IMG/VR virus record: IMGVR_UViG_3300017740_000088
Coordinates: 1-22,910 of that record
From: a virus
DNA: 22,910 bases
Reading direction: 5' to 3' (one strand)
Below the pieces are notes generated by a model. The model had not been told where the DNA came from. It saw only the letters and a program-made list of their open reading frames with translations, and did no database searches. Position 1 is the first letter of the stretch; each line of letters opens with the position of its first letter. Positions 2,699 to 21,189 of the stretch are shown one piece after another. The translations under genes and the position numbers were made by a program.

Positions 2699-4201
2699 TT
2701 AGATTGTGCTATTATTATCTTTTAAGATAATTAATTTTGCACCAATCTTACAAAGTCCATCATAATAATTAGTTGATAAATGATCTGATGAATAGTAATG
2801 ACCAAACTCATGTATCAACAGTTCAAGTATCTCTTGTTTGTTTGTATCTAAGTCAAACCATTTACGACCAAGAACATTAAAGAACAACTGCAAGTTCCCA
2901 CGACCATAACTTGCTAAAGCACCTGAACCGTCATGTACTGTAACTGATAAACTTCCAAAGCCTAATTGTTGATGTAAGAACTTTGCATAGTCAACTACTT
3001 CTTGCATCTTATCATCAACATTAACTTCTTCTGCTCCACCAGTAAACTCAGGTCTTGCATATTTACTAATTTGTCCTGATGGTAAAGCAAAATTAGAATA
3101 CTCCTCTCTTGCTTCTCTGATTTTTACCCAAGCATCTTTTGAAAGTTGGCTACCTGATATAACCTGTCTATCATCAGCAAATGCTTTTTTATTTGCTTCA
3201 GGATCAGACATATCATATACAACAGCATCTTCACCAAACTTGGCCTCAATAACAGATTTAACTGCATCAGAATTAGCTTCTTTTTGCTCTAAGGCTTCTT
3301 GTGCAAAAGTTGTTTGCAATTCATCTTCAGATAAATCAGCATGAGTTTCATTTAAAACAAATGCTTTTAACTTTTTAAGATAAGCTTGTTTAACATTATC
3401 TCTATCTTTAGATAGAGGAACTTTTTGATTAACATTTATTGTAAATGGTATATCAGTTTCAACAACTGGTATTCCTAATTCACAAATATAGTTTGTGTCT
3501 AAAGATTTAAACAATTCAATTTCAGTTAATCTTGAGGTTGGTGTAAAGTTACCTTCTTCATCAACAGTTACAGTTGGTAAAGTTTCTGTAAATACTGAGT
3601 GAGTGTTTGATCTTTTTATTAAATTATTATTAATCACAAACTCAACATTTTTTGGTGGAATTATAGTTTTTGATAAATCTAATAATTCATCAAACTCAAT
3701 TTTTTTTAGTTTGATAACACCCTCAAAGATAGAACCTAATTCTGTCTTAGTTCCAGTTTTAGTTCTAGTACCATCTGATTTAAAAAGTACAGTCCCTTTT
3801 GTGCTTTTTATTTTAGCACTTTTAAACATGGCTAATGTAGATTTAGTACCATAAGAAAAACGACCTCTTTTAGATGTATCACCAGCTTTATAACTTTCAT
3901 TAAAAAGTGTATAAGCATCAGCTAACTTTTTAAAACCTTCAGCACTATCATCTTCAACTTTAATAAATGTACCTTCAGGATTCCAATCAATGATAACATT
4001 GCATTTACTAATATTTTCATCAAAAGCATTTGAAACTAACTCTTTAATAATAAAAATTTTGTTTTTATCATTTTGATTTTTTCTTAATCCAACTTGATTA
4101 ACATTAAACCATGTAGAGTTATTGCGAGAAGTTTTGTCTAGAACTTTCTTAGACTCTGCTTCACCAGTATTACTGGATTTATTTTTTGTCATATTTAACA
4201 T
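2699..4201 (-). CDS. GHKL ATPase with C-terminal zinc metallopeptidase-like motif (RIIA-like?)
   Basis: A 500-residue protein with two recognisable parts. The N-terminal 200 residues carry the Bergerat (GHKL) ATP-binding motifs: N-box KELVSNAFDE (53-62, with E54, N58, D61), a G1-like VEDDSAEGF (82-90) and a glycine-rich lid KRGRFSYGTKS (111-121). Near the C-terminus, LLIHEFGHYYSSDHL contains HExxH (464-468) with a further His at 474, the spacing of metzincin zinc ligands (HExxHxxxxxH). The linker around 280-400 is charged and probably helical. GHKL proteins in phages include the RIIA family; this may be a relative. It is transcribed alone, divergent from the recombination genes, from an operator-bearing promoter and with its own terminator. 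ATG 4201 leaves almost no leader; ATG 4192 is an alternative. Confidence 0.75.
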   Translation of the reverse strand: MLNMTKNKSSNTGEAESKKVLDKTSRNNSTWFNVNQVGLRKNQNDKNKIFIIKELVSNAFDENISKCNVIIDWNPEGTFIKVEDDSAEGFKKLADAYTLFNESYKAGDTSKRGRFSYGTKSTLAMFKSAKIKSTKGTVLFKSDGTRTKTGTKTELGSIFEGVIKLKKIEFDELLDLSKTIIPPKNVEFVINNNLIKRSNTHSVFTETLPTVTVDEEGNFTPTSRLTEIELFKSLDTNYICELGIPVVETDIPFTINVNQKVPLSKDRDNVKQAYLKKLKAFVLNETHADLSEDELQTTFAQEALEQKEANSDAVKSVIEAKFGEDAVVYDMSDPEANKKAFADDRQVISGSQLSKDAWVKIREAREEYSNFALPSGQISKYARPEFTGGAEEVNVDDKMQEVVDYAKFLHQQLGFGSLSVTVHDGSGALASYGRGNLQLFFNVLGRKWFDLDTNKQEILELLIHEFGHYYSSDHLSTNYYDGLCKIGAKLIILKDNNSTI

Positions 4202-4207
4202 AAATAC

Positions 4208-4236
4208 AGATTACTACTATTGACATATACTGTCAA
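4208..4236 (-). promoter_or_regulatory. Promoter of GHKL gene with 17-bp operator
   Basis: On the minus strand TTGACA (4231-4236) and TAATCT (4208-4213) are separated by 17 nt. The palindrome TTGACA-tatac-TGTCAA occupies 4220-4236 and covers the -35 box and half the spacer, so a bound protein would block polymerase. Transcription should start near 4201, practically at the first ATG. Confidence 0.7.
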
Positions 4237-4323: not shown

Positions 4324-4845
4324 ATGAACATTGAAGATATTGAAAGGGAAATTGCACCTTATAGTAATGAACATAATGAGCCGCCATCACTAATTCAATC
4401 AGATGAAATTGGTAGTTTAGTATTAGCTTTATCTAAAGCACAAGGTGAGTTTCCTATCATTGGTAAAAATCAAACAGCAAAAGCTGGAGCAAGAGTTTAT
4501 GATTGGGCAGACTTATCAGCAATACACAAAGGTATAAAAGAAATACTAAGTAAGTATGAGTTAGCTATAATTTTTACACCAAATAGAGTTGTAGATAAAA
4601 ATGGTGTTACCCTAATGTTATCTATGAAGTTACTTCACTCCTCAGGTGAATACACAGAAGGTTCATTGCCTTTAATGTTAGATCAATCTACTTCACAAGC
4701 AATGGGATCAGCAATCTCTTACGCAAGACGATACTTAATGTATTGTATGTTAGATATTTCTACAGATGATGATGATGGTGTAGCTGCAACAACTAAACCC
4801 CCAGTAAAACAGACTAAAGATAACTACAATAATTATGGTCGCTAG
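4324..4845 (+). CDS. erf: ERF family single-strand annealing protein
   Basis: A 173-residue ERF-superfamily protein, a Rad52-like recombinase that anneals complementary single strands during phage recombination and genome circularisation. Family hallmarks are the N-terminal block LSKAQGEFPIIGKNQTAKAG (36-55), YDWADLSAIHKGIKEILSKY (59-78), and the signature MGSAISYARRYLMYCML (127-143) followed by the acidic DDDDG (148-152). The C-terminus is short and polar. The ATG has AGGAG 6 nt upstream. It leads the rightward operon and is followed by an SSB-like protein, its normal functional partner. The ATP-independent annealing role is inferred from the family. Confidence 0.9.
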   Translation: MNIEDIEREIAPYSNEHNEPPSLIQSDEIGSLVLALSKAQGEFPIIGKNQTAKAGARVYDWADLSAIHKGIKEILSKYELAIIFTPNRVVDKNGVTLMLSMKLLHSSGEYTEGSLPLMLDQSTSQAMGSAISYARRYLMYCMLDISTDDDDGVAATTKPPVKQTKDNYNNYGR

Positions 4846-4906
4846 AACTTTAGGTAGTTCTTTAAATGGTATTAACAATAAAATTTATTTAAGGAGATTA
4901 GCAAAA

Positions 4907-5377
4907 ATGCAAGAACAAAATAAAAAGCCACCGGAATATTATAAAAGTAATGAAACTTTTTTAGACTTTTATATAAAGCGTAATTTTAGTGAACAAGGTA
5001 GAAATATTGGTATTGAATATCAGAGCTGCTTAGTAACTTTAAAAAAAGAACAAGTTTTAAATTTATTAAAAGCAATGGGAGATAATGAAGAAATTATGTT
5101 AACCGGTAAAGGATGGTTAAATGATATAAGTGATCCAAATAAAAGTTCTCTACACGTTCAATGTGTATCTCATAGTCAGAATGATTTAGATTATTTAGCA
5201 AAATATAATGAAAGAAATTTAAACTCTAATTATCAAAGGCCTAATCAATCTACACCATCACAATATTTAGAAGCTAAAAATACTCCTAGTGATACTTATG
5301 TGACGGAAACAGATTATAGAGCTAATGCTAGTCAAGTTAAGACAACTACGGATATGGATGATGACATCCCCTTCTAA
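4907..5377 (+). CDS. SSB-like protein with canonical DDDIPF tail
   Basis: A 156-residue protein whose last residues are TTTDMDDDIPF, essentially the acidic C-terminal tip of bacterial single-stranded DNA-binding proteins that docks replication and repair enzymes. Preceding it is a low-complexity N-, Q-, S- and T-rich linker (about 100-145), also typical of SSBs. The N-terminal 95 residues should form the DNA-binding domain but I do not recognise a standard OB-fold SSB pattern: it has IGIEYQSCLVTLKKEQVLNL and IMLTGKGWLND. I chose the ATG at 4907 because AAGGAG lies 10 nt upstream; an in-frame ATG at 4835 overlaps the ERF gene and lacks one. Its position after ERF supports a role in recombination or replication. 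Confidence 0.65.
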   Translation: MQEQNKKPPEYYKSNETFLDFYIKRNFSEQGRNIGIEYQSCLVTLKKEQVLNLLKAMGDNEEIMLTGKGWLNDISDPNKSSLHVQCVSHSQNDLDYLAKYNERNLNSNYQRPNQSTPSQYLEAKNTPSDTYVTETDYRANASQVKTTTDMDDDIPF

Positions 5378-12937: not shown

Positions 12938-12965
12938 AAGATATCACATTGACAACAGGTGTCAA
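12938..12965 (-). promoter_or_regulatory. Moron promoter with 17-bp operator
   Basis: On the minus strand TTGACA (12960-12965) is followed after 16 nt by TATCTT (12938-12943). The perfect palindrome TTGACA-acagg-TGTCAA (12949-12965 on the plus strand) covers the -35 box. It lies in the only sizeable gap within the tail operon. Confidence 0.65.
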
Positions 12966-17402: not shown

Positions 17403-19706
17403 TTAAGCAGAAACACAGAATGAAACAGGATGTTTCACGCCAAAGTCAACTGAACTAAGAGCTATAAGTCTTAATCCACCTGAAGTAGCTAAAGCATACG
17501 GATCGGATTGAATTTCTAATCCTGCCCATGTTGCTACTATAAACTCTGAGAAGTCCCCAAGAATTATAGTGTTATTTGTTACCTGCGAACTAATTAAAAC
17601 TTCTCTACCGTCTACAAAGCCGTCACGTTGAGCTACAGGAGAACCTGCACCATTTGTGGCTAGTGACTTCATGTAACCATTAAGAGCTGGAGTTGTGATC
17701 CAATAAACAGAATTTCCGTCTAATGAAGCATTGTCTGCAAAGATAGCAGATTCCATAGCAATTAGCTCGGCATAAGTAGGAGCACCAGCTACACCAAATG
17801 CAGTTGCATTAACGCCAGCAGTAAACTCAATACCTCTAGGTGAAGCAGCTACAGCAGCAGGATTACCAGCTACAGAAGCAGCATCCCATGCAGTACCCAT
17901 AGCACGTAAAAGATTATTTCTAACCATTTGTTCTACGCTAAAGCCATCAGTATTTTGTAAAAGACTTCTAGTCATATCGGTAAAGCACCCATTAGTATGT
18001 TCAGAAAGTGTAACACTATCTAAAGTCGGATCAGAAGATGCTACTGCAACGCCTTCTCCAATCCAATTACTAGTTTGAGTAGCTGTAGTTCTAGGAATAG
18101 ATACATTACCTGTATTATTAGCTAGAATTGTTGGATTAGCTCTTAAAACTGTTGAAAATGGTGTTAAAGCTCCAATCATATCCTGATAACGTAAATCATT
18201 ATAGACAACATTTGCACCTGAGCCAGCAGTTGATAATGTTCTTTCTGACCATTTATTAGTTACATCTTCAGGTACAAAAAATCCTTTAGATTCTCTACCT
18301 AATTTTTGAGCGTATGCTTCAGCAGCTTCTAATTCAAAAGCAGCATCTTCACGTGAAATTAAACCAGCTTGTGCTTTTGCAGCTCTAACTATTGAAAATG
18401 ATCTTGATTCTGTTTCATTTAGACCAATTTCATTAGTTTCTAATGGTTTATTTTCAATTTCTTGTAATAAAGCACCTCTAAAAGCGTCTAATGATAGACC
18501 TTTAGCAACAGCTTCATCCGCCATTGGTGTTTTATTGTGTCTTGAAGCTAAAGAATAGATTTCTGATATATCTTTTTCTCTTTTTTGTACAGCTTCGGTA
18601 GATGCAACACGGATTTTTTCTTCAATGTTAACTTCTACTTTGTTTTCTTCTGTAGTTTTTTCCATAATAGTCTCCTTTGTTATGGTTTGGGGTTGTAAAG
18701 ATAAAGAACGTCCAATGCCTACGGTTTGATCCGCACCCATTGATACAATACTTACTTCATGTGGAGTAAAAGCAGCTCTATAGGCTTCTTCTTCTTCATC
18801 ATCATAGTAAGATTCACGCTCTAAGTTGGTTATGGTATATCCAATACTTACTTGTGTACGGATCCCATCTAAGACATCATCAAATACTTCCCTAGCCATA
18901 GTAGATTTACCAAATCGTACTGTAGAGTAAAGCCGTCCCTGACTTTCATCTAGTCTAGTATTTTCTATAACACCTATTTGTTGTCGGCTATCATGGTCAA
19001 GCAATAATGGTGCTTTATTATTTAGCCTATTAAGATCAACGTCACCTGTTCTATGTGAAAGAATTTCCAATCCAAATTCACGCATAACAGGAGATTCAGA
19101 AGATACAGACATTGTTATAGTTCTGTTTTCTACTTCGTCCCTCTCAAATTCCATAGGAAAGGCTGCTCTATGTTCTACAGTCTTTTCCTGTTTAGTTTCA
19201 ATTCTAGATTCCTCTAAAACTTCACTATTCTCAATAGTTATTTCTTCTGTTTCTTCTTCTGTAACTTCCTCTGTTTCTTCTTCTTCATAAGAATCAGCTT
19301 TTAGAAATTTTACAGTATAAGAGTCATCAGTTTCAATAACTTCCTCAATATGTCTTTTAACTTCTTTATTTTTAGTCATTGACTTCTCCTTCTTCATTTT
19401 TTCAACAAGTTTTCGTGACCAGCTAAAGCCTGCGTCTCCACCCCATAACGCCCAAGCTATTCTGCCGTTAGATGGATAACCTTCTTCACCTTGCTTAAAT
19501 CCTTCAGCTTTTTTGACACCTTCTTGCCTACTAAAAAAACTAAACATTCTTTTAACTGTATCATCAGATAGATTTTCACCAGCAATAATTTGTCTAGCCC
19601 TAACAGCACCAACTCTAGTACCACCTCTACCAAATTCTTCACGCCAAGCAATGCCCTTACGAGCTTCATCTTTCATGCCTGCGTTTGGATAATTACTAAC
19701 TGGCAT
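17403..19706 (-). CDS. Fused prohead protease - HK97-fold major capsid protein with N-terminal extra domain
   Basis: One frame of about 767 residues holds three parts (numbering here from the in-frame ATG at 19772). Residues 24-125 are a small domain often seen in phage head genes: KDEARKGIAWREEFGRGGTR, GAVRARQII, RMFSFFSRQE, PSNGRIAWALWGGDAG. After an acidic linker, residues about 200-360 are an S78-like prohead protease, with H260 in LLLDHD and S309 in QVSIGYTI as catalytic candidates. Residues 370-789 are an HK97-type capsid protein: helical delta region (371-500), then the shell domain (SERTLSTAGSGANVV onward). AAGGAG precedes an in-frame ATG at 19379 and AGGAG one at 18665, so protease and capsid may also be made separately. 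Start at 19706 or 19709 is chosen because GGTGAGG lies just upstream; it overlaps the portal end. Confidence 0.85.
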   Translation of the reverse strand: MPVSNYPNAGMKDEARKGIAWREEFGRGGTRVGAVRARQIIAGENLSDDTVKRMFSFFSRQEGVKKAEGFKQGEEGYPSNGRIAWALWGGDAGFSWSRKLVEKMKKEKSMTKNKEVKRHIEEVIETDDSYTVKFLKADSYEEEETEEVTEEETEEITIENSEVLEESRIETKQEKTVEHRAAFPMEFERDEVENRTITMSVSSESPVMREFGLEILSHRTGDVDLNRLNNKAPLLLDHDSRQQIGVIENTRLDESQGRLYSTVRFGKSTMAREVFDDVLDGIRTQVSIGYTITNLERESYYDDEEEEAYRAAFTPHEVSIVSMGADQTVGIGRSLSLQPQTITKETIMEKTTEENKVEVNIEEKIRVASTEAVQKREKDISEIYSLASRHNKTPMADEAVAKGLSLDAFRGALLQEIENKPLETNEIGLNETESRSFSIVRAAKAQAGLISREDAAFELEAAEAYAQKLGRESKGFFVPEDVTNKWSERTLSTAGSGANVVYNDLRYQDMIGALTPFSTVLRANPTILANNTGNVSIPRTTATQTSNWIGEGVAVASSDPTLDSVTLSEHTNGCFTDMTRSLLQNTDGFSVEQMVRNNLLRAMGTAWDAASVAGNPAAVAASPRGIEFTAGVNATAFGVAGAPTYAELIAMESAIFADNASLDGNSVYWITTPALNGYMKSLATNGAGSPVAQRDGFVDGREVLISSQVTNNTIILGDFSEFIVATWAGLEIQSDPYALATSGGLRLIALSSVDFGVKHPVSFCVSA
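18659..18679 (-). promoter_or_regulatory. Internal ribosome-binding site and start for free capsid protein
   Basis: On the minus strand AAAGGAG is followed 7 nt later by an in-frame ATG (18663-18665) exactly at the protease/capsid junction, giving a 420-residue capsid protein with its own delta region. This is the best Shine-Dalgarno in the frame and would supply the excess capsid needed over protease. Confidence 0.6.
19377..19391 (-). promoter_or_regulatory. Internal ribosome-binding site and start for protease-capsid form
   Basis: AAGGAG lies 6 nt before an in-frame ATG (19377-19379) just after the N-terminal extra domain. Initiation here would give a 658-residue protease-capsid polypeptide without the first domain. 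Confidence 0.5.
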
Positions 19707-21189
19707 CATCCTCACCATCTTCATCAAATGGCACACCAGTTTGAGCATTAAACTTAGTTCCATAAGGTTCATAAGCTAAATCAATTCCCATTTTAGCAGC
19801 TAAACCAGCTTGTGCGTCTAATTCTGAGAAATGTTGACTTAATTCTTTACCGCTTTGATTTAAAACATCCTGTATTGTAGATAGTCCATTTGTTAAGTTA
19901 AGCTGATTAGCTTGTGCTTCTTTTAATGGATCAACAGAATGATAACCTCTAGCAGAAAATTCTATTGGATTAGCCCACTTTTCATAACGAGTCATGGGTA
20001 AAGGTAAAGTACCTGATATAATAGCCATTTCTAACCATTTTTTATAAACTGGTTTACAGAAATGCTCTATAATAAAAGATTGAGAGTGTTTATAGCTGTC
20101 TCTCTCGTCCAATAGGCCTACTCTAGCACTACTATAACTAGTCTGCGTCAAGTCATTGGAAAGTGACGCATAAGAGACTCCTAGTCCACTAGCTATTGTT
20201 CTAAGCATTGCTTTATCAAATTCACCTACACCAGTATTAGGATGATTCCAATTAGCAAATTCAATATCAGTACCTTGTGGTAAAATATCTATAGTTGCAG
20301 GTTCAAAATTCATTGCCGGCATTGTAGCAGCTTCACCATCTAGATACGCTTCAGTAGTCATTGAATCACCTGCTGGTGTTTTAATAAAAGCCATTTTAGA
20401 TGCGGCAGCTTTACTAGCTACTAGTTCTGATAGTCTAAAATCTTGTAACCATTTGATGGCAGTCATTGTAGATGCTAATTTTTTTGGATAACCTCTAGTT
20501 TGTCCAAATCTATCAGGACTATAAAGGTGTAACATTTCAGAAGCATCAATTCTATCTTCTTTAGATGGATTACTATAGTTTGCTACAACTGTAGAACTAT
20601 AAGGATCACGATTTATCCAATACGCTAATGGTTTTTGAGTGTATTTATCTATTTCTACACCCATTTTAATACATCTACCATTACCTAATTCTTTATTAAG
20701 TGTAGAATCAAGATAATCAGGTTCTAAAAAGCTAAGTTTTAATCCTTCTTTAGTATTTATATAATGACATAATACCTCGCCATCTCTAGCTAAACCTTCT
20801 ACAATCATATTGTAAATATCAGGCATTGTATAAGTGTTACTAACTTCAGGACTTTGACACCATTGATACCAACTTCTTTCAATCAAATCATTATCAAAAT
20901 CATCTAAAGTACCATCATCATTTCTACTATGGACTTGAATTTTAAATCCTTGTCCATTTCCTATAGTACCTTGTTTAATTAATTGAAAGTATCTTTGAAC
21001 AATAGGATTATTTCTAGCTAAGTCTCTACATCTATCTCTTAAAATCTTTAGGTTGTTTTCAAGTTCTGCATCAGGACTAGAGCTAGTTGCTTTCCAATCA
21101 TTAAATAATCTTCCAGCGTTTGCGCCAGTAAAGTTTCTTTTACCAGTTTTTTTATTCTTTTTTCTTCTAAATCTATCTAAAAAAGCCAT
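19696..21189 (-). CDS. Portal protein, lambda gpB type
   Basis: A 497-residue portal protein. Landmarks are the basic N-terminus (MAFLDRFRRKKNKKTGKRNF), LFNDWKATSSSPDAELENNL, LRDRCRDLARNNPIVQRYFQ (50-69), NGQGFKIQ, the WYQWCQSPEVS block, MIVEGLARDGEVLCHYI, LEPDYLDS, SEMLHLYSPDRFGQTRGYPK and SYASLSNDLTQTSYSSARVG near 355, all in the order of the lambda family. Twelve copies form the channel for DNA packaging and head-tail attachment. The length matches the family (about 500). It begins 9 nt after the gpW-like gene and its 3' end overlaps the start of the protease-capsid gene. Confidence 0.95.
   Translation of the reverse strand: MAFLDRFRRKKNKKTGKRNFTGANAGRLFNDWKATSSSPDAELENNLKILRDRCRDLARNNPIVQRYFQLIKQGTIGNGQGFKIQVHSRNDDGTLDDFDNDLIERSWYQWCQSPEVSNTYTMPDIYNMIVEGLARDGEVLCHYINTKEGLKLSFLEPDYLDSTLNKELGNGRCIKMGVEIDKYTQKPLAYWINRDPYSSTVVANYSNPSKEDRIDASEMLHLYSPDRFGQTRGYPKKLASTMTAIKWLQDFRLSELVASKAAASKMAFIKTPAGDSMTTEAYLDGEAATMPAMNFEPATIDILPQGTDIEFANWNHPNTGVGEFDKAMLRTIASGLGVSYASLSNDLTQTSYSSARVGLLDERDSYKHSQSFIIEHFCKPVYKKWLEMAIISGTLPLPMTRYEKWANPIEFSARGYHSVDPLKEAQANQLNLTNGLSTIQDVLNQSGKELSQHFSELDAQAGLAAKMGIDLAYEPYGTKFNAQTGVPFDEDGEDDAS

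Follow-up and report, generated by a model that had tools for sequence, protein, structure and literature searches.

The GHKL machines Hsp90, MutL and MORC close by ATP-dependent dimerisation of their N-terminal domains, and the GHKL clamps of MutL and of the topoisomerases work on DNA. The well-known ATP-dependent proteases are driven by AAA+ motors; in AAA+ metalloproteases such as FtsH, which has a ring motor and a membrane anchor, an ATPase and a zincin protease occur in one chain. Zincins of the ImmA/IrrE type cut repressors in mobile elements.

Phages are known to encode RIIA-like proteins, which begin with a GHKL domain, vary strongly at the C-terminus and have been tied to counter-defence (PMC7824862). 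In the same survey of jumbo phages, RIIA-type GHKL proteins and SprT-like peptidases were reported separately, and the searched passages contained no GHKL-zincin fusion. The best-known WLM/SprT-like proteases are activated by DNA (PMC4559962, PMC5127644), and yeast Wss1 binds zinc through His115, His119 and His125, with Glu116 as the catalytic residue (PMC5557861). For the plasmid antirestriction protein ArdC, the protease activity was dispensable for antirestriction (PMC7213743).

Here we analysed a stretch of viral DNA of 22,910 nucleotides (the window), in which one gene encodes a GHKL ATPase and a zincin in a single chain. Both parts were already known. Their combination was absent from the names in Pfam, PHROGs, NCBIfam and PADLOC, and searches of about 5.4 million open papers gave no description of a GHKL-metallopeptidase fusion. 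FtsH offers a possible working analogy, but GHKL is an ATPase fold unrelated to its AAA+ motor. ArdC-type antirestriction zincins are likewise mobile-element proteins with another domain joined to a C-terminal zincin; their partner domain binds ssDNA, whereas here it is an ATPase.

The gene, its relatives and their conservation

The window is a tailed-phage record of 22.9 kb, whose minus strand carries the portal, head, tape-measure and J-like tail genes. The GHKL-zincin gene (500 aa, ATG start) also lies on the minus strand; the original prediction had its coordinates right and gave no strand. Beside it, a plus-strand block encodes an Erf-like annealing protein, a protein with an SSB-like tail and a PDDEXK nuclease, and downstream an MT-A70 methyltransferase gene is located on the minus strand. 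These surroundings are the early, DNA-metabolism side of the phage genome. The features of the gene are listed in Table 1.

Table 1. Features of the GHKL-zincin gene and its upstream region, in window positions; residue numbers are those of the window protein.
Feature	Position	Strand	Evidence
GHKL ATPase-zincin fusion, whole gene	2699..4201	-	80-100% identical relatives in 8 viral contigs; dN/dS about 0.2
Minimal zincin domain, residues 396-496 (helix, three strands, HExxH helix, helix)	2714..3016	-	pLDDT 90.3; best PDB fold match selecase 4qhi, prob 0.98; members match WLM 2.6e-5, YgjP 6e-6
Zinc-site motif H464-E465-x2-H468-x5-H474	2780..2812	-	All intact relatives retain it; same spacing in yeast Wss1 (His115/Glu116/His119/His125)
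Mostly helical linker domain, residues 291-395, conserved FGE..V.yD.sD.EAN	3017..3331	-	Conservation, model; partly common to the PHROG 6077 sister family
Second domain (S5/middle-like transducer), residues 181-290, invariant Q259, K/R260, R267	3332..3661	-	Foldseek match continues from the ATPase domain into the Hsp90 middle domain; conservation
GHKL/Bergerat ATPase domain, residues 31-180	3662..4111	-	pLDDT mostly >90; Hsp90-family fold match E 4e-12; Pfam HATPase_c_3 in 83/96 members, best 3e-8
ATP lid R112-G-R-F-x2-G-x-K120	3842..3868	-	R112, G113, G118, K120 114/114; R114 113/114
G1 box D84-D85-x3-G89, first Gly not kept	3935..3952	-	D84, G89 invariant 114/114
N-box E54-x3-N58-x2-D61 (E54 the expected catalytic base)	4019..4042	-	Invariant 114/114
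Promoter-like TTGACA-17-TAATCT, ends 6 bases before ATG (leaderless-like)	4208..4236	-	Sequence; inference only
Perfect palindrome TTGACATATACTGTCAA, overlaps -35, candidate operator	4220..4236	.	Exact copies at 4220 and 12949

Relatives were gathered from viral contigs, plasmids and bacterial genomes. Near full-length matches were obtained with one huge-phage record and six plasmids; pattern scans yielded 32 bacterial loci and at least 133 viral contigs, and we retained 80 of the contigs. The alignment contained 115 sequences with a median pairwise identity of about 40%.

The ATPase residues E54, N58, D61, D84, G89, R112, G113, G118 and K120 were invariant (114/114), Q259 and R267 were kept in 113 of 113 sequences, and further invariant residues were G156, E241, G243 and P245. 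In the zinc site, H464, E465 and H468 were each found in 110 of 111 sequences and H474 in all 111. In L039, the sole exception to the first three, a frameshift has put HELAHALGDTPMEH, itself intact, into the next frame. Other broken copies were L029, with an in-frame stop ahead of an intact HEFGH, and the truncated L033 and L047. Variation of H464, E465 and H468 among homologs, which would have spoken against a working zinc site, was looked for, and the three residues were kept in every intact copy.

Both domains were present in the same order in all intact family members found, and dN/dS was about 0.2-0.24 against relatives of 80-85% identity, a sign of purifying selection. From the residue conservation and dN/dS we rejected a chance motif or a spurious ORF; the pattern HExxHxxxxxH arose in 10 of 200,000 shuffles of the window protein. 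Among about 110 relatives, all intact ones retain the catalytic residues of both halves, so neither is a relic.

The GHKL ATPase half

The window protein contains the N-box E54-L-V-S-N58-A-F-D61 and the lid R112-G113-R114-F-S-Y-G118-T-K120. These Bergerat motifs had been predicted at the N-terminus, and their invariance and a confident Hsp90-like model bear them out. The G1 motif is D84-D85-S-A-E-G89, with its glycines only partly kept, as had been noticed: one Gly is retained, and in place of the other there is A here and P in most relatives. The window protein alone gave a weak family match (HATPase_c_3, E 0.002), and the NCBIfam sacsin-type ATP-binding domain was matched by 91 of 96 members.

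Structure prediction and fold search of both halves gave confident models, with a Bergerat fold in the N-terminal one. The AlphaFold2 model, for which 96 aligned members were the input, had a pLDDT of 90.8, and its two N-terminal domains matched structures of the Hsp90 family with E as low as 4e-12. By its motifs and predicted fold, this half is a member of the GHKL (Bergerat) superfamily. The likeness to Hsp90, HtpG and TRAP1 extends over the fold of the ATPase domain and the middle-type domain; the identity is about 11%, and the C-terminal dimerisation domain of Hsp90 is replaced by the linker and the zincin.

With Hsp90 as the closest solved fold of the two N-terminal domains, one might think of a maturation or chaperone-type protein aiding the folding or processing of virion proteins, and for jumbo phages other chaperone-peptidase pairs were proposed to serve in virion assembly (PMC7824862). 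We consider such a role most improbable, since the gene lies among early and not structural genes in the window, those of its neighbours elsewhere that can be named belong mostly to DNA and nucleotide metabolism, and copies are found on plasmids.

The protein had also been suggested to be a RIIA relative. T4 RIIA and RIIA-like proteins are indeed phage proteins with an N-terminal GHKL domain, but hhalign aligned T4 RIIA with residues 46-193 only (probability 62%), all within the GHKL domain, and T4 RIIA has no HExxH; membership in RIIA was rejected on these two points. A RIIA-like function is a separate matter: the protein could be an exclusion-protection factor whose GHKL clamp acts by binding a host complex, the C-terminal domain giving specificity only. 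RIIA models were among the viral fold matches, and zincin-less sister proteins, one of them annotated as RIIA, occur in cultured phages. The strict conservation of the zinc and catalytic residues would be left unexplained by a mere binding domain, and we regard this role as quite unlikely. The best BFVD match was A0A1B1ITP9, of 399 aa.

The zincin half and its class

The HExxHxxxxxH motif predicted near the C-terminus is real; it reads HEFGHYYSSDH at residues 464-474. Folded separately, the C-terminal domain gave a model in which HExxH is on a helix after a three-stranded sheet and the third ligand follows downstream, the arrangement of zincin metallopeptidases. The best PDB match of this model was the archaeal minigluzincin selecase, with a TM of about 0.5, and the top 20 matches were all metallopeptidases, with modest E-values (0.05 and up), which is to be expected of a domain of this size.

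The motif had been called metzincin-like, an assignment that we rejected. The His spacing alone fits; position 471, the metzincin Gly, is S in 28 members, E in 23, A in 17, C in 16, G in only 10 and N in 9. The window protein has no Met beyond H474, where a single helix precedes the chain end and leaves no room for a Met-turn, and the family matches point elsewhere. Myroilysin, the top PDB sequence match of the zincin (E 2e-4), is counter-evidence to a non-metzincin class, but domain searches with the C-terminal half returned mainly the WLM, YgjP, SprT and minigluzincin families. The Pfam-type matches of members to WLM, YgjP-like and SprT-like families were weak, and their best E-values (WLM and YgjP, Table 1) come from members other than the window protein, which itself matched neither WLM nor YgjP. 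An aromatic residue follows HExxHx5H (HEAAHALNMHHGEDF in cyanobacterial members), and with its core of about 100 residues the domain agrees with the minigluzincin, WLM, SprT-like and YgjP proteins. In motif spacing, family matches and predicted fold, the zincin half best fits the Wss1/WLM/YgjP minigluzincin type, from which it differs in being fused to a GHKL ATPase.

This class brings in the main rival explanation, a DNA-gated protease like Wss1 or SPRTN. The GHKL clamp would close round phage DNA or track along it, and the zincin would strip host or crosslinked proteins. The zincin is closest to the WLM/SprT-like proteases in motif spacing and family matches, the window protein has a GHKL domain of basic pI (9.3), and the neighbours are DNA recombination, replication and nucleotide genes. 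However, over their full length the proteins are mildly acidic, with a median pI of 6.0 in the family, and have no recognisable DNA-binding domain, and the neighbourhood only marks the early region. Nor does a Wss1-like fold mean DNA substrates; selecase and abylysin are not known to be DNA proteases. We consider this explanation unlikely.

The sister family PHROG 6077 and the history of the fusion

Three large viral contigs have a further, divergent GHKL-zincin gene near the target gene (L068:6145-7461, L103:5486-6865 and L118:2822-4129). It belongs to PHROG 6077, which is of unknown function in PHROGs and present in many cultured phages, for example Moorella phage MTATph1 (CDS0173, L129:3998-5338). 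Other GHKL proteins of PHROG 6077 are coliphage 4MG gp173 and a 'histidine kinase-like ATPase' of Vibrio phage 1.158.O. At the profile level the GHKL domain, the transducer and part of the linker align between the two families (97.7%, E 2e-12). Of 83 members of PHROG 6077 examined, 47 end in an HExxH zincin and 36 do not; unlike the target family, PHROG 6077 has its zincin lost or dead in about 43%, and the spacing after HExxH is different.

A tree of both families was made with the zincin columns excluded. The target family formed one clade with 100/100 support outside PHROG 6077, and on the PHROG 6077 side the zincin-bearing lineages were basal, so that about three losses of the zincin are needed. 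Long branches meet at the deepest split, but this join separates the two families and leaves the loss count inside the sister family unaffected. From the tree it appears that the zincin was present in the common ancestor of both families and was later lost about three times. With the zincin on both sides of the deepest split and few losses, the coupling of the two domains seems long-lasting.

Two zincin-less sister clades have recognisable dead motifs, HE being changed to EE in L161 and to RG in L180 and L194. From these changes, the three look like protease-dead descendants, and such motifs are expected if an active protease was switched off. The simplest history would be an ancestral ATPase-protease, of which the protease half was later disabled in some phages. 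The idea of a RIIA relative with an added effector probably has the direction wrong, the zincin being ancestral by the tree and later lost in relatives.

Distribution and neighbouring genes

The copies of the target family were mostly viral, including those in contigs of 485, 435 and 407 kb. The family is widespread in viral contigs, several of them over 200 kb, and has almost no annotation. One full copy per genome was found, in 20 records. Bacterial and plasmid copies were interspersed among the viral ones, and few were found in cells, namely in 2 of 386 cyanobacterial genomes and in 1 of 385 Roseomonas-class genomes, the starting genome being included in each count.

No conserved neighbour, partner gene or operon was found across the loci read. 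The nameable neighbours elsewhere were dUTPase, ThyX, thymidylate kinase, RecA, PDDEXK nucleases, Gam, DNA polymerase A and topoisomerase. Having no conserved neighbour and the usual early gene set around it, the gene looks like a single-gene module. In the PADLOC defence-system search the window protein was unmatched; TmtA of PADLOC gave weak matches in up to 65 of 96 members, with a best value of 6e-9.

Several loci showed particular arrangements. Three Picosynechococcus plasmids (L014:7416-12693, L015 and L016) contained a DAC (DisA_N) nucleotidyl cyclase gene, then the GHKL-zincin gene, then a CHAT-domain gene, an arrangement that may be a small module for signalling or conflict. Diadenylate cyclase and CHAT were rejected as fixed partners, being confined to these three plasmids and absent from the other cyanobacterial-type loci read. 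A SIR2-HerA anti-phage pair is about 3 kb away from the copy in a Rhodovastum plasmid (L012:1767-4798), and the identical protein is also encoded by L094, a contig classed as viral. Three related viral contigs have, immediately beside the target gene and separate from it, a small zincin gene with HELFH (L063:2941-3258).

Proposed mode of action

The original prediction of an ATPase clamp and a protease in one phage polypeptide stands as far as the parts are concerned, both of which are present, conserved and confidently modelled; ATP use and proteolysis are what these parts suggest. The explanation that we favour, and hold to be slightly more likely than not, is that phages and related mobile elements have here an intracellular metalloprotease that is gated by ATP and acts without a partner, most likely early in infection. 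The GHKL and transducer halves would form a clamp, in which ATP binding would lead to N-terminal dimerisation and closure, most likely as in Hsp90, MutL and MORC. Closure would be relayed through the linker domain, so that a protein substrate is presented to the C-terminal zincin or trapped there, and the substrate would be cut by E465 and the H464/H468/H474 zinc site. In its likeliest use the enzyme would inactivate a host protein early in infection, for example a defence or regulatory protein. In the original suggestion it might act on the host or on rival phages.

Since every ATPase and zinc-site residue is strictly selected and the domains have long been kept together, ATP-gated proteolysis by a clamp seems the likeliest function. 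The location on the early, DNA-metabolism side, the lack of a fixed partner and the patchy spread point to early use against a host protein. Against this explanation, zincin-less sister members are common in cultured phages, so the GHKL part is useful without a protease; ArdC did not need its protease activity for antirestriction (PMC7213743); and the gene neighbourhood points to no substrate.

More broadly, we might speculate that ATP-dependent proteases of an ancient class exist in phages and plasmids, with a GHKL clamp in place of the AAA+ ring as the motor. One chain would close on its substrate with ATP and cut it, a host protein, with its built-in minimal zincin, and common cultured phages would have protease-dead or protease-less descendants of it. 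We rate this view as plausible and somewhat short of probable. If it is true, such a protease, driven by a GHKL clamp, would solve the problem of the AAA+ proteases in another way. PHROG 6077 offers natural experiments with active, dead and missing protease domains, including the member of coliphage 4MG, which is accessible in laboratory E. coli.

The upstream region and other observations

The gene is divergent from the Erf gene, and a palindromic site lies in the intergenic region common to both. This arrangement, and the presence of PprI far down the zincin fold matches, would suit a regulatory protease of the ImmA/IrrE type, cutting a phage or host repressor on an ATP- or damage-linked signal and so switching phage development. 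We think this highly unlikely, because no repressor gene is conserved beside the GHKL-zincin gene and the family spans large phages of many kinds as well as plasmids.

The gene had been described as encoding an early protein under its own operator-controlled promoter, which is borne out in part only. A promoter-like site and a perfect palindrome are indeed directly upstream, but close relatives do not keep the second half of the palindrome and a generic promoter scan found promoter-like sites no commoner than by chance. The arrangement TTGACA-17-TAAxxT near the ATG was also found upstream of the gene in L002, L004, L005 and L056. With the -10-like box six bases from the ATG (4202-4236) and a similar spacing in close relatives, the mRNA may be leaderless. 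The palindrome TTGACA-N5-TGTCAA occurs in the window as exact copies at 4220-4236 and 12949-12965 and with one mismatch at 337-353. All three copies are in an intergenic gap upstream of a minus-strand gene, and the palindrome is a candidate phage operator; in close relatives the second half of the copy at 4220-4236 is not conserved.

Two other proteins of the window were recorded. The 180-aa protein encoded at 4835-5377 has an SSB-like acidic tail (DDDIPF), no PHROG match and a weak match to the KwaB Pfam family (E 0.013). The 789-aa protein encoded at 17403-19772 is composed of an uncharacterised N-terminal part (PHROG 2859), a part like a head maturation protease and a major head protein.
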